Assembly (NCBI GenBank): GCA_001464585.1
Contig: LNFF01000025.1
Span: 1 to 64,000 of the forward strand
Direction of reading: 5' to 3'
Source of the DNA: Gammaproteobacteria bacterium Ga0077554
GTDB taxonomy: Bacteria > Pseudomonadota > Gammaproteobacteria > Ga0077554 > Ga007554
DNA: 64,000 nucleotides
Shown piece by piece: positions 14,218 through 63,229 of the stretch. Below the pieces are notes generated by a model. It was not told the origin of the DNA, ran no database searches, and worked only from the letters and a program-made list of their open reading frames with translations. The stretch's first letter is position 1. Each line of letters starts with the position of its first letter. The position numbers were made by a program, and so were the translations under genes.

Positions 14218-14229
14218 GGGTGTCCGCGT

Positions 14230-14280
14230 TTGTCATTTCGAGCGGAGCGAGAAATGACAAACTGGCCTCGAAATGACAAC
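14230..14280. repeat. Dispersed GTCATTTCG palindromic repeat, copy 1
   Basis: TTGTCATTTC (14230-14239) and GAAATGACAA (14251-14260) form a perfect 10-bp hairpin around GAGCGGAGCGA, followed by a second GAAATGACAA (14270-14279). Related copies are at 26133-26238 and 44897-44966. It lies between clpA and infA and may also serve as a transcription end for both. Confidence 0.7.
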
Positions 14281-14773: not shown

Positions 14774-16450
14774 ATGGCCTGGATTAACCCAAAAACAATA
14801 TTGATAATTTTTACCCTGCTAATGGCGGGGGTAGTGAGCGGCTGCGCGGGTGGGGGGGGTGATGATACCCCCAGCGCGGCGACTGCTCCGGTGGTGCTGA
14901 TCACCAGTCCCGCCAATAATGCGACGGGAGTGCTGCTGACCAAGCCGATTGCAGTGGCATTTTCCAAAGTAATGAAAGCCGATACATTTACCGCCACTAC
15001 ATTTACTGCTAAATCAAGCACTGGCAGTGTTGTCAATGGCACGATTACCTATGAGAACGACTACGCTACACTAACACCTTTGCCTTCTGCATTGCTGGCT
15101 CCCAGTACACTTTATACTGTTACCGTTGCGCGAGTGCAGGCATCGGATGGAATTATGTTGGCCGCACCCTATTCGTGGAGTTTTACGACTGGGCCGCTGG
15201 ATCCCGGTTTTGGTAATGGCGGTGTAGTGATCACGCCAGTTTCAATGACGCTGGGGGATGGCGCACGTGCGGTGGCCGTACAGCCTGCCGATGGCAAGGT
15301 TGTGGCCGTGGGGTATGTTGATAGCGGTAACGGAAATTATGATTTTGCCGTGGCGCGTTACAACACGGATGGCACTCTGGATACCAGCTTTGGTGGGAAT
15401 GGTATTGTCACCACCGCCATATCGGCAGGCCGCGATGAAGCGCGTGCTGTGGCGATTCAACCGCTTAATGGCCAGATTGTGGTAGCCGGTGTTACAACTA
15501 ATAATAGTACAGGCACAGATTTTGTAGTGGCCCGCTATAACTCCGCAGATGGCAGTCTGGATACAAGCTTTAACACGAACGGATACATAGTAACCGACTT
15601 TGGTGTCACTAAGGACGAAGCCTTTGCCATGGCCATTCAATCTACGGGCAAGATTGTAGTGGTTGGGCAAACGGGATCGCTTACCGATTCAAGTTTTGCC
15701 ATGGCGCGTTATAACACTAACGGTACGCTTGACACCACCACATTTGGTACGAGCGGCCTGCAGAGGACATCTTTTGGGAATGGAGTTGATGCGGCTTATG
15801 CTGTTGCCATTCAAGATGTCACTGACAAGATCGTTGTCGCCGGCATTACCGATAGTACCCTGGGTGACGGTATCAATAACGATTTTGCTTTGGCCCGTTA
15901 TGACGCTAATGGTATTTTAGATGGCACATTTGATATGGATGGACAAGTGACGACCGCAATAGGCGTGGCTGATGAAGGTGCTTTTGCAGTCGGGATTCAG
16001 CAGTCTACTGGCAAGATTGTGGCGGCGGGCGCGGTTTTTAATACCGCCAGTAATAATAATGACTTTGGGTTGGTGCGCTACCATGATAATGGGGCATTGG
16101 ATACTACCTTTGGCGCAGCCAGCACTATACCAGGGACAGTGCTTACCGATATGGCAGGTAGTAACGATGTTGCGCTGGCTTTGATGATTCAGGCCGATGA
16201 CAAGATTATGGTGGGTGGTGCGGCCTTTGTAACAGGCCAAGACAATGATTTGGCTCTGGCACGTTACAACACGGATGGCAGTGCAGACACGACGTTTGAC
16301 GCCGATGGTAAAGTCGTTACCAATATTAGTGCGGCGCATGATACGGCTTATGGACTGGCGTTGCGGCCCGATAGTAAAGTGGTGCTGGTGGGCAGCACAG
16401 GCACTGGAACCGACTCGAACTTCTTACTGGTAGGATTTATTGCCCCTTGA
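14774..16450 (+). CDS. Lipoprotein with Ig-like domain and seven delta-60 repeats
   Basis: Probable outer-envelope lipoprotein of 558 residues, function unknown. A hydrophobic signal ends in the lipobox V-S-G-C. A Gly-rich stretch leads to a bacterial Ig-like (Big_5/SbsA-type) domain (S-P-A-N-N-A-T-G-V to S-W-S-F-T-T-G). It is followed by seven repeats of about 55 residues, each with F-x-V/L-A-R-Y-N and L-D-T-S-F-G-x-x-G, the delta-60 repeat expected to form beta-propeller blades. Start: GGATGAGGA sits about 9 bases before the ATG at 14774; an in-frame ATG at 14765 directly abuts that site. A related smaller protein follows at once. Confidence 0.8.
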   Translation: MAWINPKTILIIFTLLMAGVVSGCAGGGGDDTPSAATAPVVLITSPANNATGVLLTKPIAVAFSKVMKADTFTATTFTAKSSTGSVVNGTITYENDYATLTPLPSALLAPSTLYTVTVARVQASDGIMLAAPYSWSFTTGPLDPGFGNGGVVITPVSMTLGDGARAVAVQPADGKVVAVGYVDSGNGNYDFAVARYNTDGTLDTSFGGNGIVTTAISAGRDEARAVAIQPLNGQIVVAGVTTNNSTGTDFVVARYNSADGSLDTSFNTNGYIVTDFGVTKDEAFAMAIQSTGKIVVVGQTGSLTDSSFAMARYNTNGTLDTTTFGTSGLQRTSFGNGVDAAYAVAIQDVTDKIVVAGITDSTLGDGINNDFALARYDANGILDGTFDMDGQVTTAIGVADEGAFAVGIQQSTGKIVAAGAVFNTASNNNDFGLVRYHDNGALDTTFGAASTIPGTVLTDMAGSNDVALALMIQADDKIMVGGAAFVTGQDNDLALARYNTDGSADTTFDADGKVVTNISAAHDTAYGLALRPDSKVVLVGSTGTGTDSNFLLVGFIAP

Positions 16451-16452
16451 CA

Positions 16453-17769
16453 ATGATGCGAAAACATTCTCACTCAATGGCGATGCTGCTGGCGGCCGTA
16501 TTCTTTTTATTGCTGAGTAGCTGTAACTGGCAAGGGGAAAGCCCCCGCGATAATACCCAGGATGATCTAAGGGTAGTATTCCAAATTCCTGCGCAGTTGA
16601 CCAATGATCCCAACTCGCCTACTGCGGGCGCATCAGTAGATGTGGCTATCGCGGTGGCGTTTTCGCGGCAGATGGATCTGTGTTCGTTTACTGCGGCGTC
16701 GCTGCTATTGAGCACCAACGGAAATCCGGTGAGTGGCTTTATTTTTCATCGTCCTACAGATTCTTATCCCAATGGTTTTATGCTTTTTCAGCCCGCCACG
16801 CCCTTGGCTTATGATGCCATTTATACGGTGACCATAAAGGCAGGCGTGCGGGCCATGGATGGTACTGTGCTGCCAGCCGATTACTCCTGGAATTTTATGA
16901 CGGGATCACCCCCTCCTAACCTGGGGGGTGGCCCTGCGCCCAGCATTAGCCGGGCTGCGCCGTTGGCGGCGTCTCCTATTACATGTGAAACACCGGCTGC
17001 GGCAATCCAGGCCGATGGCAAGGTGATCGCCGCCGGACATATCAATGGCGCGAATTTCATGGAATTTGTGGTGGCTCGATATAACGCCAGTGGGGGATTG
17101 GATGCCGCATTCAGTGGCGACGGCATCGCATCAACTATCATCGGCTCAGGGCATTCGCAGGCCCTGGCGGCAACGGTGCAGGCCGATGGCAGGATCGTCG
17201 CCGTGGGTGTGGGATCCAATGCCACGGATAAAGATTTTGCATTGGCGCGATACCTGGCCGATGGCAGTTTTGATCCTACCTTTAGTGATGATGGTCGCCA
17301 TGCAGTGGACTTGGGTACGGGGAAGGACGAACGTGCCGTGGCGGTGGCGGTGCAGACTGATGGCAAGATAATAGTGGCAGGTTCAGGCAGTGATGGCGCG
17401 GCGTTTATTCTGGCGCGTTACAATGCGGACGGCAGTGCCGACACTACTTTTGGCGCCAGCGGTATTGTGAGTACCTCTGTCCCTATGAATAGCGAGGCGA
17501 GTTATGCCATGGTGTTGCAGGGTGATGGAAAAATAGTGGTGGCCAATAAAGCGCTGGTTGGCGCGACGCAGGTGACTGTGACGCGTTACAATACCGATGG
17601 CAGCGTCGATACTACGTTTAATGGCGGTGCTCCACTGGCGTTGCCGCTCACCGCGCAGCAAGCCACTGCAACACTGGCCGCGCATGCCGATGGCCGGATT
17701 GCGTTGGTTCAACATAGCGGCGTGGGTGCGACGGCTCAGTTTACGGTGCTGGATTATCTGGTGTATTGA
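16453..17769 (+). CDS. Lipoprotein with Ig-like domain and about four delta-60 repeats
   Basis: Paralogue of the preceding gene, 438 residues, function unknown. The signal peptide ends L-S-S-C-N, a good lipobox. An Ig-like (Big_5-type) domain ends Y-S-W-N-F-M-T-G, then a Pro/Gly-rich linker, then repeats with V-V-A-R-Y-N-A-S-G-G-L-D-A-A-F-S-G-D-G and similar. Only about four recognisable delta-60 units remain against seven in its neighbour, and the last is degenerate. The start (ATG at 16453 or 16456) lies 2-5 bases after the upstream stop, so the two are translationally linked. The pair interrupts an otherwise typical clpA-infA-ate-aat neighbourhood. Confidence 0.78.
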   Translation: MMRKHSHSMAMLLAAVFFLLLSSCNWQGESPRDNTQDDLRVVFQIPAQLTNDPNSPTAGASVDVAIAVAFSRQMDLCSFTAASLLLSTNGNPVSGFIFHRPTDSYPNGFMLFQPATPLAYDAIYTVTIKAGVRAMDGTVLPADYSWNFMTGSPPPNLGGGPAPSISRAAPLAASPITCETPAAAIQADGKVIAAGHINGANFMEFVVARYNASGGLDAAFSGDGIASTIIGSGHSQALAATVQADGRIVAVGVGSNATDKDFALARYLADGSFDPTFSDDGRHAVDLGTGKDERAVAVAVQTDGKIIVAGSGSDGAAFILARYNADGSADTTFGASGIVSTSVPMNSEASYAMVLQGDGKIVVANKALVGATQVTVTRYNTDGSVDTTFNGGAPLALPLTAQQATATLAAHADGRIALVQHSGVGATAQFTVLDYLVY

Positions 17770-26101: not shown

Positions 26102-26132
26102 ATTAGGAGACATGTCATGACTTTGTCCAGCC

Positions 26133-26238
26133 TGTCATTTCGACCGAAGGCGACCGCCATGGATGGCGGAAGGTAGAGCAACGCAGGAGCAGTTGCCGGG
26201 AGAAATCCTAAGATTCCTCGCTACGCTCGGAATGACAC
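26133..26238. repeat. Composite repeat: GTCATTTCG family with a family B hairpin inside
   Basis: TGTCATTTCGACCGAAGG at the left and CTCGGAATGACA at the right are the arms of the GTCATTTCG family. Inside are GACCGCC-ATGGAT-GGCGG and a hairpin GCAAC-GCAGGAGC-AGTTGC (26178-26196). The same inner modules occur at 47585-47633 and 57198-57299, so two repeat families have been combined here. Confidence 0.7.
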
Positions 26239-35481: not shown

Positions 35482-38400
35482 TTAACCCGCTAACTCACTA
35501 GCAATCATCTCGGCTTGCTTCAAAACCGTTTCGGTGGCCAGTAACTGCATGTCGGGCGGGTAGCCAAATTGGCGCAAGGTGCGCTTCACAATCACTTTCA
35601 GTTTGGCCCTCACATTTTCCTTGATCGTCCAGTCTATCGACGCATTCTCACGCACCCGCTGCGTCAGCACCACGGCCAGCTCGCGCAACTTGTCTTGCTG
35701 CATCAGTTCGCGCGCGCTGTCGTTGTTGGCCACTGCAGTGTAAAACGCATATTCAAAATCGCTCAGGCCCATGTGCTTGGCCTCATCATCTGAAGCGACG
35801 ATCTCCTTGCTGATCTTGATCAGTTCCTCCATCACCTCAGCAGCGGTCAGAATCTTGTTGTGATATTTCTTGATGGCGTTTTCAAGCATCTCCATCAAGG
35901 TTTTACTCTGTACTAGATTTTTTTTGGCGCGTGCTTTCAGTTCGTCATTGAGAAGTTTTTTCAGCACCTCCAAGGCTATGTTCTTGTGTTCATGACCTTT
36001 CAGCTCGGCCAGAAATTCGTCGGACAATATGGAAATATCCGGCTTCTTGATACCCGCCGCATCAAATACATCAATCACCTTTTCTGACACCAGCGCCTGA
36101 TCAATCACCTGGCGGATGGTGGTTTCAATCTCTTCATTGCTGCGCCCTTCGCCCCCATCGGCAAAAGAAGCGTCGAATTTGGCAAGACGCGCTTTCACTG
36201 CCTGAAAAAATCCCACTTCGTCGCGGGCACCCATAGCCTGCTCGTGCGGCACAGCGATGGCGAAAGCCAGAGAAAGCGCCGTCACCTCGTTGATATAGCG
36301 CTTTCTGCCATCCTCCAACCCGAGAATATGTTCCTCGGCTGCCAGAATCAGCGACAGTTTTTGTGCGGTATCGGCCTCAAAATAGTTTTCATAGGCAAAG
36401 CCGTGATACATGGCAGACACCACTTCCAGCTTCTCCAGCATCAGGCTCACCGCCTGTTCCTGCGCCAGAGTCGGGTCGCCCTTACCTCCCGCATCAGAAT
36501 AGAACGAGAGTGCCTCTTTCAGATCAGCGGCAATCCCCAGATAATCCACCACCAAGCCGCCCGGTTTGTCTTTGTGTACCCGGTTCACCCGAGCAATTGC
36601 CTGCATCAGGTTGTGCCCCTTCATCGGCTTGTCGATGTAGAGCGTGTGCATACTCGGCGCATCAAAACCAGTCAGCCACATATCGCGCACAATCACCAGC
36701 TTGAGCGGGTCATCGTCGTCCTTCATCCGCTCGGCCAATTGCTTGCGCTGCTCTTTGGTGGTGTGATGTTTGGCCAGCAGCGGGCCATCGCTGGAGGCGG
36801 CCGTCATCACTACCTTGATAGCGCCTTTGTTTAAATCATCGGAGTGCCACGCAGGCTTGATCTTGATGATTTCCGCATACAGCTCGGCGGCAATGCGCCG
36901 CGACATGCTCACCACCATACCCTTGCCTGCGAACACCGCCTGCCGCGCCTCGAAGTGAGCCACGATATCCTTAGCAATATTCTTGATGCGCTGTTCACTA
37001 CCGATCAGCGCCTCCATCTTCGTCCACTTGGCCTTGGCTTTCTGCATCTCGGGGACGGGCGAACCCCTGTGTTCGCCCTGTTCTGGCCTGTGTTCGCCCT
37101 GTTCTGGGCAGACACGGGGGTCTGCCCCTACATCATCAAATTCTTCGTCCAGTTCGGCAATCAGCCTTTTTCCTTCGTCACTCAAGCCCACCTTCGCCAG
37201 ACGGCTCTCGTAATAAATCCGTATCGTCGCGCCATCCTCAACCGCCTGGGCAATATCGTAGATGTCCACATAGTTGCCGAATACCGCCGGGGTGTTCACA
37301 TCGGTTTTTTCAATCGGTGTGCCGGTAAAGCCAAGGTAAGTAGCGCTGGGCAGCGCATCGCGCAGGTATTTGGCAAAGCCGTACACCACCTTCTTGCCAA
37401 TCACCTCGCCATTGGCGTCTTTCTCGTCCAGGGTCTTGGCGCTGAAGCCGTATTGCGTGCGGTGCGCCTCATCCACAATCACCACGATGTTGCGCCGGTC
37501 GGACAACAGTTCGTACACATCGCCATCGCCGGGCTGAAACTTCTGGATGGTGGAAAAGATCACTCCGCCGGAAGCCACTTTCAGCAGATCCTTCAACTGC
37601 TCCCGGTTCGCTGCCTGCACCGGCTCCTGACGCAAAAGCTGTTTGGAGGCAGCAAAGGTGTCGAACAACTGGTCGTCCAGGTCGTTGCGGTCGGTGATGA
37701 CCAATACGGTGGGGTTATCCAGCGCCAGCACAATCTTGCCGGTGTAAAACACCATGGAGAGCGACTTGCCTGAGCCTTGGGTATGCCACACCACACCGGC
37801 CTTCTTGTCACCCCTGGGTTGGTGGCCAACCCCCGGTAAACCGTAGCTGGCTGGGGTTTCACGCACACCCGCACTACCCCTGATATCTGCCGCGCGTAGC
37901 GTCGAAGCCACCGCCGCATTCACGGCGTAGTACTGGTGGTAGGCCGCCAGCTTCTTCACGGTGCTGATGCTGATGACGCCGGTTTTCGGATCTTCCTTCT
38001 TGCTCTTTTCAAAGACGATGAAGTGGCGCAGCAAATCCAGCAGCGTGGCCTTGTTCAACATGCCGAGAATCAGCGTCTCCAATTCCGGTAGGGGCAGGCT
38101 CCTGTGGTTGCCCTTCGTCATTCCGTGGCTACCAGAATCAGGGCAGGCACGGGGGCCTGCCCCTACACCGTCCGCACTCTTCCACATCATGAAACGACTC
38201 AAGCCTGCGGAAAGCGAACCCGCTTTGGCCTCCAACCCGTCGGAAATCACCAGCAAGGCATTCGAAGTGAATAAGCTGGGGATAGATTGCTTATAGGTGT
38301 CAAGCTGCTGATACGCCACCTTGATCGTGGCGTTTTCATCGGCAGCGTTTTTCAGCTCAATCACCACCAGCGGAATGCCATTGACGAACAGCACCAGATC

Positions 38401-38841
38401 GGGCCGTTTGTTCTGGCGCCCCTGGTGATCAGAATGGCCGATCACCGTGAATTGATTGGCGACAACGAACTCGTTGTTCTCGGGATGGGCAAAATCGATC
38501 AGCCACACCAGATCGCCGCGCTCGTCGCCGTCTTGCTGGCGGCTTACCTTCACGCCCTCAGTGAGCAAACGGTGGAAGGCTTCGTTATTCGCCAGCAGAT
38601 CGGGCGAACTGATGCGCTGCACTTCCTTAAGCGCAGCCTGCAACACCGCAGGCGACAACTTGGGATTGATGCGCTTGAGCGCCTGCGCCAGCCGCCCTCT
38701 CAGCAACACCTCATCATAATGACTGCGCTCTGGCTGCTTACCATCCGGTGCAATGTCCGGCGCGTAAACGTAACTGTAACCCAGGCGCTCGAATAGCTTG
38801 ATGGCGAAGTCTTCGATGGCGGATTCGGTGAGTCTAGACAT
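35482..38841 (-). CDS. hsdR: Type I restriction enzyme, R (HsdR) subunit
   Basis: Motor and nuclease subunit of a type I restriction enzyme; cuts unmethylated DNA after ATP-driven translocation. From the ATG at 38841 it has 1119 residues. The nuclease core is R-P-D-L-V-L-F (D148) and V-I-E-L-K-N (E162, K164). The helicase starts with H-T-Q-G-S-G-K-S (GSGKS 356-360), then D-E-A-H-R, F-T-G-T-P-I, and T-G-F-D-A-P-S. It carries two extra translated palindromes: about residues 225-251 (V-G-A-G-P-R-A-C-P...) and about 571-597 (V-G-A-D-P-R-V-C-P...). These lie outside the motifs. The frame is open upstream to 38892 but the ATG at 38841 starts the conserved M-S-R-L-T-E-S. It overlaps the RAYT stop by 8 bases. 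Confidence 0.94.
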   Translation of the reverse strand: MSRLTESAIEDFAIKLFERLGYSYVYAPDIAPDGKQPERSHYDEVLLRGRLAQALKRINPKLSPAVLQAALKEVQRISSPDLLANNEAFHRLLTEGVKVSRQQDGDERGDLVWLIDFAHPENNEFVVANQFTVIGHSDHQGRQNKRPDLVLFVNGIPLVVIELKNAADENATIKVAYQQLDTYKQSIPSLFTSNALLVISDGLEAKAGSLSAGLSRFMMWKSADGVGAGPRACPDSGSHGMTKGNHRSLPLPELETLILGMLNKATLLDLLRHFIVFEKSKKEDPKTGVISISTVKKLAAYHQYYAVNAAVASTLRAADIRGSAGVRETPASYGLPGVGHQPRGDKKAGVVWHTQGSGKSLSMVFYTGKIVLALDNPTVLVITDRNDLDDQLFDTFAASKQLLRQEPVQAANREQLKDLLKVASGGVIFSTIQKFQPGDGDVYELLSDRRNIVVIVDEAHRTQYGFSAKTLDEKDANGEVIGKKVVYGFAKYLRDALPSATYLGFTGTPIEKTDVNTPAVFGNYVDIYDIAQAVEDGATIRIYYESRLAKVGLSDEGKRLIAELDEEFDDVGADPRVCPEQGEHRPEQGEHRGSPVPEMQKAKAKWTKMEALIGSEQRIKNIAKDIVAHFEARQAVFAGKGMVVSMSRRIAAELYAEIIKIKPAWHSDDLNKGAIKVVMTAASSDGPLLAKHHTTKEQRKQLAERMKDDDDPLKLVIVRDMWLTGFDAPSMHTLYIDKPMKGHNLMQAIARVNRVHKDKPGGLVVDYLGIAADLKEALSFYSDAGGKGDPTLAQEQAVSLMLEKLEVVSAMYHGFAYENYFEADTAQKLSLILAAEEHILGLEDGRKRYINEVTALSLAFAIAVPHEQAMGARDEVGFFQAVKARLAKFDASFADGGEGRSNEEIETTIRQVIDQALVSEKVIDVFDAAGIKKPDISILSDEFLAELKGHEHKNIALEVLKKLLNDELKARAKKNLVQSKTLMEMLENAIKKYHNKILTAAEVMEELIKISKEIVASDDEAKHMGLSDFEYAFYTAVANNDSARELMQQDKLRELAVVLTQRVRENASIDWTIKENVRAKLKVIVKRTLRQFGYPPDMQLLATETVLKQAEMIASELAG
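37053..37131. repeat. Family A palindromic repeat inside hsdR (copy 2)
   Basis: 79 bp. The right arm ends GTCTGCCCCTAC (37131); the left arm is degenerate (GGACGGGCGAACCCC). Between the arms a 21-bp unit is directly repeated, giving (P-E-Q-G-E-H-R) twice in the protein. Translated from the coding strand it starts V-G-A-D-P-R-V-C-P. Confidence 0.85.
38088..38166. repeat. Family A palindromic repeat inside hsdR (copy 1)
   Basis: 79 bp bounded by GTAGGGGC (38088) and GCCCCTAC (38166), with 27-bp arms that match imperfectly. Read in the coding direction it gives V-G-A-G-P-R-A-C-P-D-S-G-S-H-G and ends L-P-L-P. The second arm is read in a different frame from the other copies. Confidence 0.9.
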
Positions 38842-39379
38842 GATAGCTATCTTCTTCCCACCGTTGGGGATTGGTCTGGATGTATTCGGCAATTTTCAAA
38901 TACGAATCCTCGTCGCGGATGATATGTTCGTAATAATTGCGTTGCCATAATTTAGCTGGAAATAATTGCCAACCATTTTGTTTAACGCCATCCGTATATT
39001 GTTTCGTGGTCATGGTTTTGAATCGGTGAACCACATCAGGTAACGAAAACCCCGTAGGGGCACCCCCCCGTGGTTGCCCTTCACCAACAGGGCAGGCACG
39101 GGGGCCTGCCCCTACGATTATGACAATTCCATGGATGTGGTTTGGCATCACAACAAATTGGTCAATTTCAACGCCGCAGTAATGCGCCGGAATTTGATCC
39201 CATATGGTGCGTACCATTTTCCCTGCATCGTTCAAATTCATTTCACCATTTTCAATATCACCAAATAGACACAGGCGGTCTTGCGTGCAAATGGTCACGA
39301 AATACAGCCCTTTTTGCGAGTAATCATACCCACGCAACCGAATGGAACGGCGATGGTGAATATCCGGGTTGTATTTCAT
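38834..39379 (-). CDS. REP-associated tyrosine transposase (RAYT, Y1/HUH family)
   Basis: Single-strand DNA transposase of the TnpA_REP group, 181 residues. The HUH motif is M-P-N-H-I-H-G (H81 and H83), and the catalytic tyrosine is in L-W-Q-R-N-Y-Y-E-H-I-I-R (Y149 or Y150). Such enzymes are linked to the spread of REP palindromes. This one itself contains a family A repeat between the HUH motif and the next helix (residues about 89-109, V-G-A-G-P-R-A-C-P-V-G-E-G). It lies inside the restriction operon, ending 8 bases into hsdR, with its start 6 bases from the rhuM/Fic stop. That close spacing suggests it is expressed with the operon. Confidence 0.9.
   Translation of the reverse strand: MKYNPDIHHRRSIRLRGYDYSQKGLYFVTICTQDRLCLFGDIENGEMNLNDAGKMVRTIWDQIPAHYCGVEIDQFVVMPNHIHGIVIIVGAGPRACPVGEGQPRGGAPTGFSLPDVVHRFKTMTTKQYTDGVKQNGWQLFPAKLWQRNYYEHIIRDEDSYLKIAEYIQTNPQRWEEDSYHV
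39054..39115. repeat. Family A palindromic repeat inside the RAYT gene
   Basis: 62 bp from GTAGGGGC (39054) to GCCCCTAC (39115). Translated from the coding strand: V-G-A-G-P-R-A-C-P then G-Q-P-R-G-G-A-P-T. The arms are imperfect 27-bp inverted repeats. Confidence 0.9.
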
Positions 39380-39385
39380 TTTCCC

Positions 39386-40366
39386 CTACACATTTTCCTG
39401 CACGCTCAACATATTCATTATCAGGCGAATCAGCGTTTCTTTCTGCTTGGGGTCGGACTCCGCCACCAGCAGCGTCAGTGCCGCCAGGCCAGTGTCGTTG
39501 ATGACCGCTTCCCCTTGCGCATTCAACAAACGGCCATTGCGATGCAGAAAGTCCACAAACAAAAACGCCCCGCTGCGCTTGTTGCCATCCGAAAACGGGT
39601 GGTTTTTCACCATAAAATACAGCAAGTGCGCCGCCTTGCTTTCCACTGTCGGATAAGCAGGTTCGCCAAACACCGACTGGTCAAGATTGCCCAGAATCGC
39701 CGACAACCCATCCCCGCGCGGCTGGGCGAACAAATTGGTCGCCTCGCCCCGCGCCAGCAACGACTGCTTCAACGCCTGCAAAGATGCCGTGGCGTCGGAC
39801 TCGGCAGGCAAACGCCCGCCGGACTGACCCGCAGGCTCCGCCAGCATCCCCTCATCATAGCGCTGCAACCAGAGAAAGGTTTGCGTGTAGCGGCTGACAA
39901 TCTCCACCAGTCCGCTGCCCGCCTCTGCACTCAGCTCCGGTGATCGCGCCGCCTTGCGAATCAAGGCCAGCGCCTGCTGTAACTCGGCGGCGTTTTGGTC
40001 AAAGCGGGACTGGTTCAGCGTATAGCCCTGCACCAGGTGTTGGCGCAACACTTGGGTCGCCCAGCGTCTAAACTGCACGCCCCGCTCAGACTTGATACGG
40101 TAACCGACAGAAATCACCACATCCAGATCATGATAGACAACCGGCTTGTCAGAATTTGCAATATGCATTTTTTGCATATTGCTTTTTTCTGAAAGCTCGC
40201 CTTCAGATAAGGCATTGCGAATATGACGCGAGACAACCGACTGATCCCGCCCGAACAACTCTACCATCTGCGCTTGCGACAGCCACACCGTATCCTGATC
40301 CAGAGTTACCTCTAGCCGCACCACGCCATCTGCGGCTTGAAAAATCTGAATTTTTGACTCTTTCAT
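39386..40366 (-). CDS. RhuM-type protein with C-terminal Fic/Doc domain
   Basis: A 326-residue protein. The N-terminal part (V-W-L-S-Q-A-Q-M-V-E-L-F-G-R-D-Q-S-V-V-S, then V-Y-H-D-L-D-V-V-I-S-V-G-Y-R-I-K-S) is the RhuM virulence-factor-type domain with a probable DNA-binding N terminus. The C-terminal domain has the Fic motif H-P-F-S-D-G-N-K-R-S, expected to transfer AMP or phosphate to protein side chains. Genes of this kind are often found inside type I restriction operons. It could act as a toxin-like guard or a regulator; no antitoxin-type inhibitory helix is evident. It lies between hsdS and the RAYT gene. Confidence 0.88.
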   Translation of the reverse strand: MKESKIQIFQAADGVVRLEVTLDQDTVWLSQAQMVELFGRDQSVVSRHIRNALSEGELSEKSNMQKMHIANSDKPVVYHDLDVVISVGYRIKSERGVQFRRWATQVLRQHLVQGYTLNQSRFDQNAAELQQALALIRKAARSPELSAEAGSGLVEIVSRYTQTFLWLQRYDEGMLAEPAGQSGGRLPAESDATASLQALKQSLLARGEATNLFAQPRGDGLSAILGNLDQSVFGEPAYPTVESKAAHLLYFMVKNHPFSDGNKRSGAFLFVDFLHRNGRLLNAQGEAVINDTGLAALTLLVAESDPKQKETLIRLIMNMLSVQENV

Positions 40367-40392
40367 CGCGTCTCCTTTCCCGTTTTTCTACG

Positions 40393-41546
40393 CTATAAGT
40401 CCAAAGCCACCCTCACTTCGCCGCTCATCAGCTTGGGCAACAGGGTGTCGCGGAGTTTTTCGAGGGTGCGGATTTGTGTCAAGACGTGGAGTTTTTTCAT
40501 GAAATACCCAGACACCATTTTCTCGAAGTCTTGAATTGCCTCATGGGGTGGGACAGTAATCACAATATCCCGAAAAGTAGCTGTCGTTATTGTGTCAAAG
40601 ACGCTGCCATAGGCGGATGAACGAAGCTCACTTACCGCGTGGTTTATCAGCAAGTAGGTGAAAAAAAAGCAGCCTTCCACCTGGGGCAATATCCCATAGT
40701 TTGACTGGCTATAGGTCATCGGTTTTGACAGAAGCGCATATTTTCCAACAGTTCCTCTTGCAGAAATCACGGTAGCGAATCTAGGCAATAATTTTGCAGA
40801 ACTATTTACAAGCCCTTCTTGAGTGATCGTTTTTTCAGAAGAAACAACAAATGATTTATGGCTTGAGGCAATGTCTCCCCCAGATAGCCATGGTATTTCT
40901 CCATCCCAATATTCAGCTACTGAAGTTTTAGGCGTTCCACCACCGACAAGCTCAATAACATCGAGTAGGTTCTTCCCCACCCAATCCTCCTGCGCCTCTT
41001 CCACGAACCACTGACGGAACAGGGTTTCGGCCATGGCTTCGAGGGTTTGGTTCTGGCGGTGCAGCAGGTCGATTTTGTCGTCGAGGCTGCTGAGCACGGC
41101 GGCGATGGCTTTTTGCTCGTCACGCTCTGGAATTCTCCATTTTGTATCTTTGAGAAAATTCCAATCAGCCCTTGGCATACGAGAACCGCCCTCACTAGCA
41201 TTGGCAGTATCAATGAATTCCCAATTAGCCAAGAAATAAAACACAAAATCTTGTAAGCAATTTTTCTTTGCTCGCACGACCCAAATGTCAGTTGAGCAAA
41301 CGCCATCAAATTTTGCTTTTACAACCTTCCGAAAATATGGCCTCAATTTCCCGAATAAAATATCGCCAGTTTTAAAGAAAAACTTGTTGCTGGCGATCTC
41401 GGATGAATGTCCAACTGAATTTAAACGCAACCTCTCTTGCTCTATGTGCTCTAGACCAATGTAGTTGAAGTCGGCATTTTGATCCGGTTTGAACTGGTCT
41501 TTACCAAGTTCAACGAAGTCAGAAAGTTTCAACTCCCGCCACCCAT

Positions 41547-41550
<4 letters not shown>
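40393..41550 (-). CDS. hsdS: Type I restriction-modification specificity (HsdS) subunit
   Basis: DNA-recognition subunit with two target-recognition domains. The 385-residue protein has TRD1 at about 1-150, the central conserved region [23 protein letters not shown] with Q[10 protein letters not shown], TRD2 (V-G-G-G-T-P-K-T at its start), and the C-terminal repeat [15 protein letters not shown]. Its bipartite target cannot be read from sequence. It starts inside the hsdM stop (ATGA overlap) and so is coupled to hsdM. Average for the family in length. Confidence 0.93.
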
Positions 41551-43175
<1,625 letters not shown>

Positions 43176-44879: not shown

Positions 44880-44896
44880 AAAAACAATTACATTTT

Positions 44897-44966
44897 TGTC
44901 ATTTCGAACGAAGTGAGAAATCTATTGTGATAGTTACCAGGATCTCTCCCGGCGGTCGAGATGACA
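44897..44966. repeat. Dispersed GTCATTTCG palindromic repeat, copy 3
   Basis: TGTCATTTCGAACGAAG at the left and GGTCGAGATGACA at the right, with AGAAATC and GATCTCT inside. It lies between the NudJ and kinase genes. Confidence 0.65.
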
Positions 44967-46070: not shown

Positions 46071-46199
46071 CGTGCGGCGGTCTCTTCCGGCATCCTGCCT
46101 CTCGTGACACTTGCGCCGGGCAGGATGCCCAAGTGCGGTGAGCGCAGGGATGCGCAAGAACCGCCACTTCCTCGTGCGGCGGGAGCAGCGAAGTGCTAG
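46071..46199. repeat. Family B repeat between rluE and icd (diverged copy)
   Basis: GGCATCCTGCC (46089-46099) and GGCAGGATGCC (46119-46129) form a perfect 11-bp hairpin. The central CCTCTCGTGACACTTGCGC resembles the other family B copies. CACTTC and GAAGTG (near 46168-46197) enclose GCGGGAGC, a likely variant of the core hairpin. Confidence 0.65.
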
Positions 46200-47560: not shown

Positions 47561-47570
47561 AAGCGTTGGC

Positions 47571-47675
47571 CGCTTCCGGCATCCGACCGCCATGGATGGC
47601 GGAAGTGTCGAAAATGCAGGAGCATTTTTCGACCTGCCTCTCGCGGCACTTGTGCATCCATGCACGACGCGCAGC
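47571..47675. repeat. Family B repeat between icd and the Kelch gene
   Basis: Modules in order: CTTCCGGCATCC, GACCGCC-ATGGAT-GGCGG, the hairpin GTCGAAAAT-GCAGGAGC-ATTTTTCGAC (47607-47633), CCTGCCTCTCGCGGCACTTG, then GTGCATCCATGCAC and GACGCGCAGC. It overlaps the upstream region of the Kelch gene. Confidence 0.8.
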
Positions 47676-57195: not shown

Positions 57196-57302
57196 ATGCG
57201 ACCGCCAGGGATGGCGGTCGCTTCCGGCATCCTGCCTCCGGCGACACTCGTGCATCCCTGCACAGCGGAAGTACTGGAAAGGCAGGAGCATTTTCCAGTG
57301 AA
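57196..57302. repeat. Family B repeat between the two exbD genes
   Basis: Modules: GACCGCC-AGGGAT-GGCGGTC, CTTCCGGCATCCTGCCTCC, ACTCGTGCATCCCTGCAC, AGCGGAAGT, then the hairpin ACTGGAAAG-GCAGGAGC-ATTTTCCAGT (57273-57299). It ends 2-5 bases before the exbD2 start and carries the only GGAG-like site upstream of it. Confidence 0.8.
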
Positions 57303-57303
57303 A

Positions 57304-57816
57304 ATGTCACGCCGTGCAAAACGTATGCAGCGTAATCATTCGCGCACCAAGCGCGGGGGTGGTCTTAACCTGGTTGCGCTTGTCGATATTTTCACAATCA
57401 TGGTTTTTTTTCTTGTGATCAGTTCGTCAGAAGTGGAAGTTCTGCCTAATACCAAAGTTGTAAAATTGCCGGAATCCATCACCGAAAAAGCACCGCGCAA
57501 GAACGTGCTGGTGATGGTGAGCGATAAGGATATTATGGTAGAGGGGATCAAAGTTGCTTCTGTGCAGGAAGTTATGGATGCCAAGTCCGATGTAATTGCA
57601 TCTTTGAAATCCAGGTTGGACGAGGAAGGGCAGGCGAGTCGACTACAGGGGAAGGTGGGTGGCGACATCACTATTATGGGTGATAAAGCTATTCCGTATC
57701 GACTCTTGAGGAAAATTATGGTGACCTGCACCAGAGCCAATTACAGCAATATCTCTTTGGCAGTGGTGCAAAAGGTGAGAGGACAAGCCCCTCTCGGTGT
57801 CGGAGGGCAAAATTAG
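57304..57816 (+). CDS. ExbD/TolR-family protein 2
   Basis: A 170-residue ExbD: basic N terminus (M-S-R-R-A-K-R-M-Q-R), membrane segment L-N-L-V-A-L-V-D-I-F-T-I-M-V-F-F-L-V with the Asp in L-V-D-I, then the periplasmic domain. Start at 57304 gives the normal N terminus; the frame is open back to 57196 through the family B repeat, so an N-terminally extended form cannot be ruled out. Two ExbD proteins per operon are typical of Agl-like motors. Confidence 0.92.
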   Translation: MSRRAKRMQRNHSRTKRGGGLNLVALVDIFTIMVFFLVISSSEVEVLPNTKVVKLPESITEKAPRKNVLVMVSDKDIMVEGIKVASVQEVMDAKSDVIASLKSRLDEEGQASRLQGKVGGDITIMGDKAIPYRLLRKIMVTCTRANYSNISLAVVQKVRGQAPLGVGGQN

Positions 57817-61816: not shown

Positions 61817-63229
61817 TCACGTTAGTATACCGCGCAAATGGGTAGCATAGGTTTCAAGATCCGCTGCGGTTTTGGTTTCTGTGGCGCATATTAATAGTGC
61901 ATGGCCCAGTTCCGGGTAATCGTCGTGCAAGTTATAGCCGCCTACCAAGCCCTGCGCGGCCAGTTTGGTCAACACTTCATCTGCCGGGCGTGGTAATTGT
62001 AGCGCCGCTTCATGGAACAGCGGGCCCTCAAAGAGTTTGGTGACGCCGGGGATGGTTGCTAATTTATCTATCAAGTTTAATGTATTGTCATGACATTGCG
62101 CGGCGACACGCTCAAGGCCATCGGGCCCTAACAGAGACATGTGGATGGTAGCAGCCGTGACCACCAGACCTTGATTGGTGCAGATATTGGAGGTGGCCTT
62201 GGAGCGGCGAATATGCTGTTCGCGTGCCTGCAATGTAAGAGTGAAGCCGGGTTTTCCGTCGAGATCAACAGTTCGACCGACGATGCGGCCCGGCATCTGG
62301 CGTACGTGTTCCTGCTTGCAGCATAAAAACCCGAAGTAGGGGCCGCCGGAAGATAGCGGCGCGCCCAACGGTTGCCCTTCACCGCACACAATAGCCGCTC
62401 CCGGCTTCGTGCCTCCTGCGGCACTTGCACATCCATGTGCATCGTCCGCACCCACGTTACCCCATTCACCGGGCGACGCTAACACCGCCAGCGAGATCGG
62501 GTTGACTACACCAATCACCAGGGCGTTATGCTGATGCGCCCAGTCGGTGAGCGCGTCCACTTCTTCGAGGACGCCAAAGAAATTAGGCTGCGGAATTACC
62601 AGTGCGGTGATGTCGTCATGCGCATATTTTTGCAGTGACTCCAGAGTAATGTGCCCGCGCTCGCTGCAATAAGGCAATTCGATGAGTTCGATGCCCTGAT
62701 TTTTCACAATGGCGTGAACCACCTTGCGATACACAGGATGCACGGTACTGGGCATCAACACGCGCTTGGTGTTTGATTTACGGTTGGCGCGCACCGCCAT
62801 CAACACTGCTTCCGCCAGTGCCGATGCGCCATCGTATAACGATGCGTTGGATACGTCCATGCCGGTGAGGCTCGCCATCATGGTCTGGTATTCATAAAGC
62901 AGTTGCAACGTGCCCTGGCTGGCTTCAGCTTGATAGGGTGTGTAGGAGCTGTAGAACTCACCGCGCGTAGCGATTTCCCACACCGCTGCGGGGATGTGAT
63001 GGTCGTACGCGCCCGCGCCCATGAAGCACAGTGGGCGGCCATCCTGTTCGGCACGCGCCATCATCAGGCGGCCAATCTCCATTTCACTGATGCCGGCCGG
63101 GATTTTTGCCAGGCCTCCCATGGTGCGCAAATCCTTGGGGATTTCGTCAAACAGATCGTCGATGCTCGACACGCCCACGGCGTGCAGCATGTCACGTACA
63201 TCGTTTTCGGTATGAGGTATAAAAGGCAT
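61817..63229 (-). CDS. gcvPA: Glycine dehydrogenase (decarboxylating) subunit 1
   Basis: N-terminal half of split P protein, 470 residues. [10 protein letters not shown] at the start, [16 protein letters not shown] in the core, [19 protein letters not shown] near the end. Between G-E-W-G and A-A-I-V, where relatives read straight through (G-A-D-I-V), there are about 19 extra residues (about 257-275, [10 protein letters not shown]) coded by a family B repeat. The insertion keeps the frame. Confidence 0.95.
62400..62459. repeat. Family B repeat translated inside gcvPA
   Basis: TGCCTCCTGCGGCACTTG followed by TGCACATCCATGTGCA corresponds to the CTGCCTCTCGCGGCACTTG-GTGCATCCATGCAC module seen at 47634-47665. 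It lacks the GCAGGAGC hairpin. Coding-strand translation gives [15 protein letters not shown]. Confidence 0.75.

Follow-up and report, generated by a model that had tools for sequence, protein, structure and literature searches.

A 51-bp two-hairpin element inserted as DNA in the genomes of Gammaproteobacteria

Among the short palindromic repeats of bacteria, REPs are single hairpins of 20–40 bp, tagged by GTAG (or CGTC) and often paired in opposite orientation (PMC3733652, PMC2817692, PMC8266576), and the Rickettsia palindromic elements (RPEs) of the Alphaproteobacteria are either ~150 bp long or short CGTC-tagged REPs (PMC10969869, PMC3733652). The element described here, which occurs in two forms termed X and AB, is most like RPEs and intragenic REPs in its behaviour. 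As in the case of RPEs, palindromic mobile repeats are found in frame in many unrelated genes; X differs in being 51 bp long, in having two GGA-loop hairpins and in its occurrence in Gammaproteobacteria, i.e. it is set apart by size and distribution. With REPs/BIMEs and their RAYT (TnpA-REP) proteins it shares the short, high-copy, strand-specific hairpin repeats, some of them intragenic, as well as a suspected Y1 transposase. However, X consists of two unlike hairpins that face the same way, with an invariant-type loop and no constant GTAG/CGTC tag. The unit is not a single 20–40 bp hairpin, none of ~40 inspected Y1 gene regions is flanked by the repeat, and of the GTAG (or GGAG) tag that precedes such hairpins there is only the GGTAG of one arm class, the GCAAC class described below.

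PATE-type derivatives of IS200/IS605 are longer and carry the ends of an identifiable parent IS. Like these, X has same-strand hairpins near both ends and shows no target duplication, but it is only 51 bp long, no parent was found and its target is weak; neither a fixed 4–5 nt 5′ target nor ends shared with a Y1 gene were observed. The CsrB/RsmZ sponges and the TwoAYGGAY RNA (RF01731) also have repeated (A)NGGA-loop hairpins, with a purine-rich internal loop in one stem, whereas X has no covariance-model match among such families, lies in both orientations relative to genes and inserts as DNA. A published description of either the sequence or the architecture was not found in our literature search, with most subscription journals outside its coverage.

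Architecture of the two forms

The window, i.e. the whole 64,000-nt stretch analysed here, comes from Gammaproteobacteria bacterium Ga0077554 (contig LNFF01000025.1). The original prediction described three hairpins in it with an invariant GCAGGAGC core, and all three are present (26178–26196, 47607–47633 and 57273–57299). The core alone is unremarkable, with 5 matches in the window versus 2.25 expected. Across the 2.9-Mb source genome, the pattern GCGGAAG-N0-14-GCAGGAGC occurs 46 times and GACCGCC-NN-GGAT-GGCGG 45 times, while the reversed-pattern control of each gave 0. The genome-wide collection proposed as a check of the prediction yielded 46 copies in two main arm classes. Arms that vary yet still pair, as had been claimed, are indeed seen: the first class (GCAAC/GTTGC) comprises ~30 near-identical copies, and in the second, G(C/T)(C/T)G(G/A)AAA/TTT(C/T)C(G/A)(G/A)C, 4 of 11 pairs are double-changed, with 9 double-changed cells versus 2.7 in shuffles and at most 1 in slid controls, i.e. 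sliding the partner abolishes the signal. Unpaired bases on the 3′ side are also common to the family-B copies.

The family-B hairpin is only half of a unit, namely the second hairpin of the AB form. The GACCGCC-xxGGAT-GGCGG stretch, which had been read as a separate module preceding the core, is present as part of the same element, and the copy at 57273 is a real hairpin, with the correction that a nested insertion separates it from its own first hairpin.

A search for GGA-loop hairpins in the window and one 318-kb contig yielded the grammar of the element, i.e. a CG(A/C)(C/T) tag, followed by hairpin 1 with the loop A-N-G-G-A-Y, an NAGT linker and hairpin 2 with an A(N)GGAN loop. Hairpin 1 has a stem of 4–5 bp and a loop of six bases. 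Hairpin 2 of X has an outer stem of 5 bp and an inner one of 3–4 bp, separated by an unequal internal loop rich in purines, and that of AB is a long A/T-rich stem bearing two single-base bulges. The A and the T of the X linker are invariant in 108 copies, but the search pattern imposed both; NAGT is also found in the CTGGAAA/TCGAAAA class of AB. Of 186 copies, 132 are exactly 51 bp long, AB elements measure 50–51 bp (complete AB copies 51 bp), and tandem copies have a 51-bp period. Both hairpins are separate and lie on the same strand, inverted repeats are absent from the element ends, and the two-hairpin fold is predicted with DNA and with RNA parameters alike.

We searched 92 loci of many Gammaproteobacteria with R1, a covariance model of X. 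The resulting alignment of 105 copies was fitted to the structure; 97.7 % of its cells pair and compensatory changes on both sides are seen in 10 of the 12 base pairs, with 134 double-changed cells versus 30 in shuffles, which preserve columns, and at most 10 in slid controls, which fail. The loop of hairpin 1 reads ANGGAN in 79 of 81 scored copies (GGA was not imposed in scoring; loops of this kind had served to build the model). A few X copies have ACGA in hairpin 2. Hairpins with 4-nt GGA loops are enriched in the source genome (17 versus 4). A generic enrichment of GGA-loop hairpins as a family-wide trait was rejected, as a 300-kb sample of a sister genus gave 6 versus 4 although X occurs in that genus.

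Could family B simply be a classical GTAG REP, with the remainder as neighbouring sequence? The GGTAG just 5′ of hairpin B in the GCAAC class would agree with this, as would the RAYT genes and GTAG-tagged hairpins that exist in the source genome. However, GGTAG is found before hairpin B only in that class, X and the second B class carrying NAGT or AAGTG instead, the inserting unit is the 51-bp pair and not a single hairpin, and the RAYT genes of the source genome are not flanked by the element, which makes this explanation very improbable.

Insertion, nesting and in-frame copies

The copies found in the window are listed in Table 1.

Table 1. Copies of the X and AB elements in the window and the interrupted host gene
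Feature	Position	Strand	Remarks
AB element, GCAAC class	26151–26197	+	Hairpin A loop ATGGAT, GGTAGAG linker, hairpin B core 26183–26190; flanked by the two halves of a TGTCATTTCGACCGAAGG/GAGAAATC repeat; 3′ limit ambiguous by ~4 nt
X element, 3′ part	46080–46113	-	Hairpin 1 interrupted by nested X 46114–46164
X element, 51 bp, GGGC stem variant	46114–46164	+	Nested in opposite-strand X
Interrupted X element, 5′ part	46165–46181	-	Partner of 46080–46113
X element, 3′ part	47569–47583	-	Hairpin 2 loop interrupted by AB element
AB element, 50 bp	47584–47633	+	Contains reported hairpin 47607–47633; nested in opposite-strand X
Interrupted X, 5′ part	47634–47669	-	Hairpin 1, linker, half of hairpin 2
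AB hairpin A part	57199–57216	+	Split off by nested X
X element, 51 bp	57217–57267	-	Nested in AB at GGCG^GAAGT; empty junction present in locus L006
AB linker and hairpin B	57268–57299	+	Core 57282–57289; ends just 5′ of start codon
X element, 51 bp	62394–62444	-	In frame in gcvPA, a glycine dehydrogenase (P-protein) subunit gene; same gene without X in sister genera
Host gene, Pfam GDC-P, 470 aa	61817–63229	-	Residues 262–279 element-derived

Several other repeats occur in the window. A TGTCATTTCGA..GAGAAATC repeat, which elsewhere in the genome is a frequent host of GCAAC-class AB elements, lies at 14229–14255, 26130–26205 and 44895–44921. At least five GTAG-tagged hairpins of the GTAGGGGCAACC..GGTTGCCC type, a separate REP family, are found at 37104–41870, one pair of them forming a long inverted repeat (41773–41870). 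In addition, there are a 28-bp inverted repeat (50710–50737/50845–50872; 96 % complementary, 107 bp apart) and repeated coding segments at 15287–17469 (five 71-nt copies and others).

X is carried by 31 of 185 sampled Gammaproteobacteria. Its copy numbers reach at least 139 (source genome), at least 146 and at least 47 across three congeners and 20–75 in most of the sister genus, all of these being lower bounds as a limited number of candidates was scored. Carriers by exact pattern include Thiodiazotropha, Sedimenticola, Stenotrophomonas, Rhodanobacter and Arenimonas, among others; the few single matches in other phyla come mostly from metagenome-assembled contigs, which may be misbinned. A very small genome of 1.4 Mb (G119) holds at least 23 X copies.

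For the detection of empty sites, the flanks of each element were joined and searched against all loci. This revealed an uninterrupted counterpart for 43 distinct occupied junctions; many of the empty sites lie in repeats and are therefore paralogous, not orthologous. The inserted unit is normally 51 bp, and 52 bp in one Thiodiazotropha lineage. No target-site duplication was seen at the 43 junctions, where a shared single C leaves a one-base ambiguity; since inverted ends are lacking as well, a MITE with terminal inverted repeats was rejected. Apart from a C at +1 (right edge) in 74–81 % of copies, the target preference is weak. Insertions are found in either orientation in intergenic DNA, in genes and in other copies, often in the hairpins of the latter. 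Among the nested cases, X lies in AB or in hairpin 1 of another X, and AB lies in the loop of an X hairpin 2. The 51-bp element thus inserts precisely as a DNA unit.

Among the 186 copies from all loci, 59 are clearly genic. For gcvPA, the two nearest species, both congeners, differ: one has X with another X inserted in its hairpin 1 and the frame intact, the other a shortened remnant. On contig C40, which was sampled for the census, X or AB interrupts genes matching RimO, GCV_T (YgfZ-like), RimM, PurH and a BioF-like aminotransferase, and the Pfam matches of the hosts comprise GDC-P, RimO-type, GCV_T, RimM, AICARFT (PurH) and aminotransferase. RimM and the TRAM domain of RimO show a 17-residue excess over Pfam in the region of the insert, and the aligned solved homologues of PurH and RimM are without it. 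Two genic assignments of the first pass, before sdhA and trmD, probably lie 5′ of the actual start codons and were excluded as examples.

A length of exactly 51 bp is found in 55 of the 59 genic copies versus 77 of the 127 others (p=1.7e-6), an excess to be expected if copies that break the frame are purged. Of 108 copies, 71 lack stops in all six frames, compared with 11.5 % of shuffles. Copies in essential genes would persist because the insert keeps the frame (51=3×17) and carries no stop. The precise 51-bp insertions with empty sites, the nesting and the in-frame genic copies strongly support hairpin-forming mobile DNA, one of the two possibilities that the original prediction had raised.

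Candidate mobilisers

We consider it likely that the hairpins are parts of a non-autonomous 51-bp mobile DNA element with two hairpins on one strand, and that a Y1 enzyme is the likeliest mobiliser. The element strand would fold as single-stranded DNA, e.g. on the lagging strand, and one protein reading the shared GGA loops would join both ends and move the element in trans; the best candidate for such a protein would be a Y1 HUH transposase (RAYT or IS200-type). Of the 31 carriers, 28 have Y1_Tnp, versus 86 of 154 non-carriers (p=2e-4), with genome size as a possible confounder, and at one locus (L097) an X lies ~0.4 kb from a Y1 match. On the other hand, none of ~40 Y1 gene regions inspected is flanked by the hairpin pair; given this and the possible effect of genome size, the role of Y1 is an inference. 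That X is the REP of a resident RAYT was rejected, since the Y1 gene regions are flanked by other repeats (GTGGGCAC..GTGCCCAC, GGCGGGAA..TTCCCGCC) or by none. It also counts against Y1 that the gap between the hairpins of known IS200/IS605 elements is far longer than the 4 nt of X, and that the target preference of X is weaker than in IS200/IS605.

Mobile DNA moved by some other enzyme or process, i.e. a recombinase acting on folded single strands or replication-linked copying, is possible rather than probable. It would account for the ~40 Y1 regions having yielded no autonomous partner with X ends, for the weak target and for carriers in which no Y1 gene was detected, namely the complete genome G125 (with a single weak copy) and the incomplete genome G105. 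The association with Y1 argues against it, and same-strand end hairpins without target duplication are what IS200/IS605-type chemistry is expected to give.

CsrA-like loops and implications

The other possibility raised by the original prediction, a structured RNA, is not supported as a general role. In sequence, both loops agree exactly with the CsrA consensus (A)NGGA, and the element could act as RNA in that its two hairpins would together make up a bivalent CsrA/RsmA site, transcribed copies either titrating CsrA or bringing the host mRNA under CsrA control in the manner of CsrB/RsmZ. Both loops fit the hairpin A-N-G-G-A and their spacing falls within the 10–55 nt range of dual-site CsrA binding (PMC6028588); moreover, CsrA binding by the two-hairpin TwoAYGGAY RNA was predicted on the same ground by the RMfam authors (PMC4333381). 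Of 35 carriers, 34 have CsrA, but the protein is near-universal in the class, so that its presence does not discriminate. A need for the GGA-loop strand as RNA would predict a sense bias, whereas the genic copies are 31 sense and 28 antisense (p=0.79). G-U pairs are rare in the X stems, which is weak evidence, with G-T versus A-C cells at 15:8 (not significant). The CsrA-sponge families of Rfam gave no significant match, and at gathering as well as relaxed thresholds there was no relevant Rfam match, only a chance-level RsmW fragment (E 3.8). An RNA function as the explanation of the element is therefore quite unlikely, and a selfish element acting at the DNA level fits best, given the lack of sense bias in genes and the rarity of G-U pairs.

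Nevertheless, some copies might conceivably use their CsrA-like loops as RNA. The original prediction had also pointed to the Shine-Dalgarno-like sequence held in the loop; its role is not a general one, but it may matter at 57284–57288, just 5′ of a start codon, where hairpin B (in the region 57268–57310), with its AGGAG loop at Shine-Dalgarno distance from the likely start, may have been co-opted as a ribosome-binding site.

In other genomes, several Y1/RAYT genes (L299, L300, L298 and L051) have a Shine-Dalgarno sequence in an A(N)GGAN hairpin loop directly 5′ of the start codon, with a second ATGGAT hairpin further upstream in L300, a layout typical of CsrA repression. In the source genome, two oppositely oriented AB elements (G000:C31:89592-89686) lie ~0.8 kb from the single csrA (C31:90450-90605, minus strand).

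A 51-bp selfish element with dual-use hairpins, i.e. serving as the ssDNA ends on which an unknown or a borrowed transposase acts and as bivalent CsrA sites when transcribed, seems unlikely to us. If true, essential proteins would acquire 17-residue inserts, and the transcriptome CsrA sites, as the element spreads.

For the selfish DNA element that we favour, the genic copies mean that 17-residue insertions are tolerated by housekeeping proteins. The best-known gene-invading palindromes that stay in frame are those of Rickettsia and of a few REP families; X is short, abundant and precisely delimited, and occurs in free-living Gammaproteobacteria with congeners, which makes insertion, target choice and the mobiliser directly testable. 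The X model also helps annotators with wrongly called repeats, and an (A)NGGA hairpin found in one of these genomes is not necessarily a regulatory RNA.
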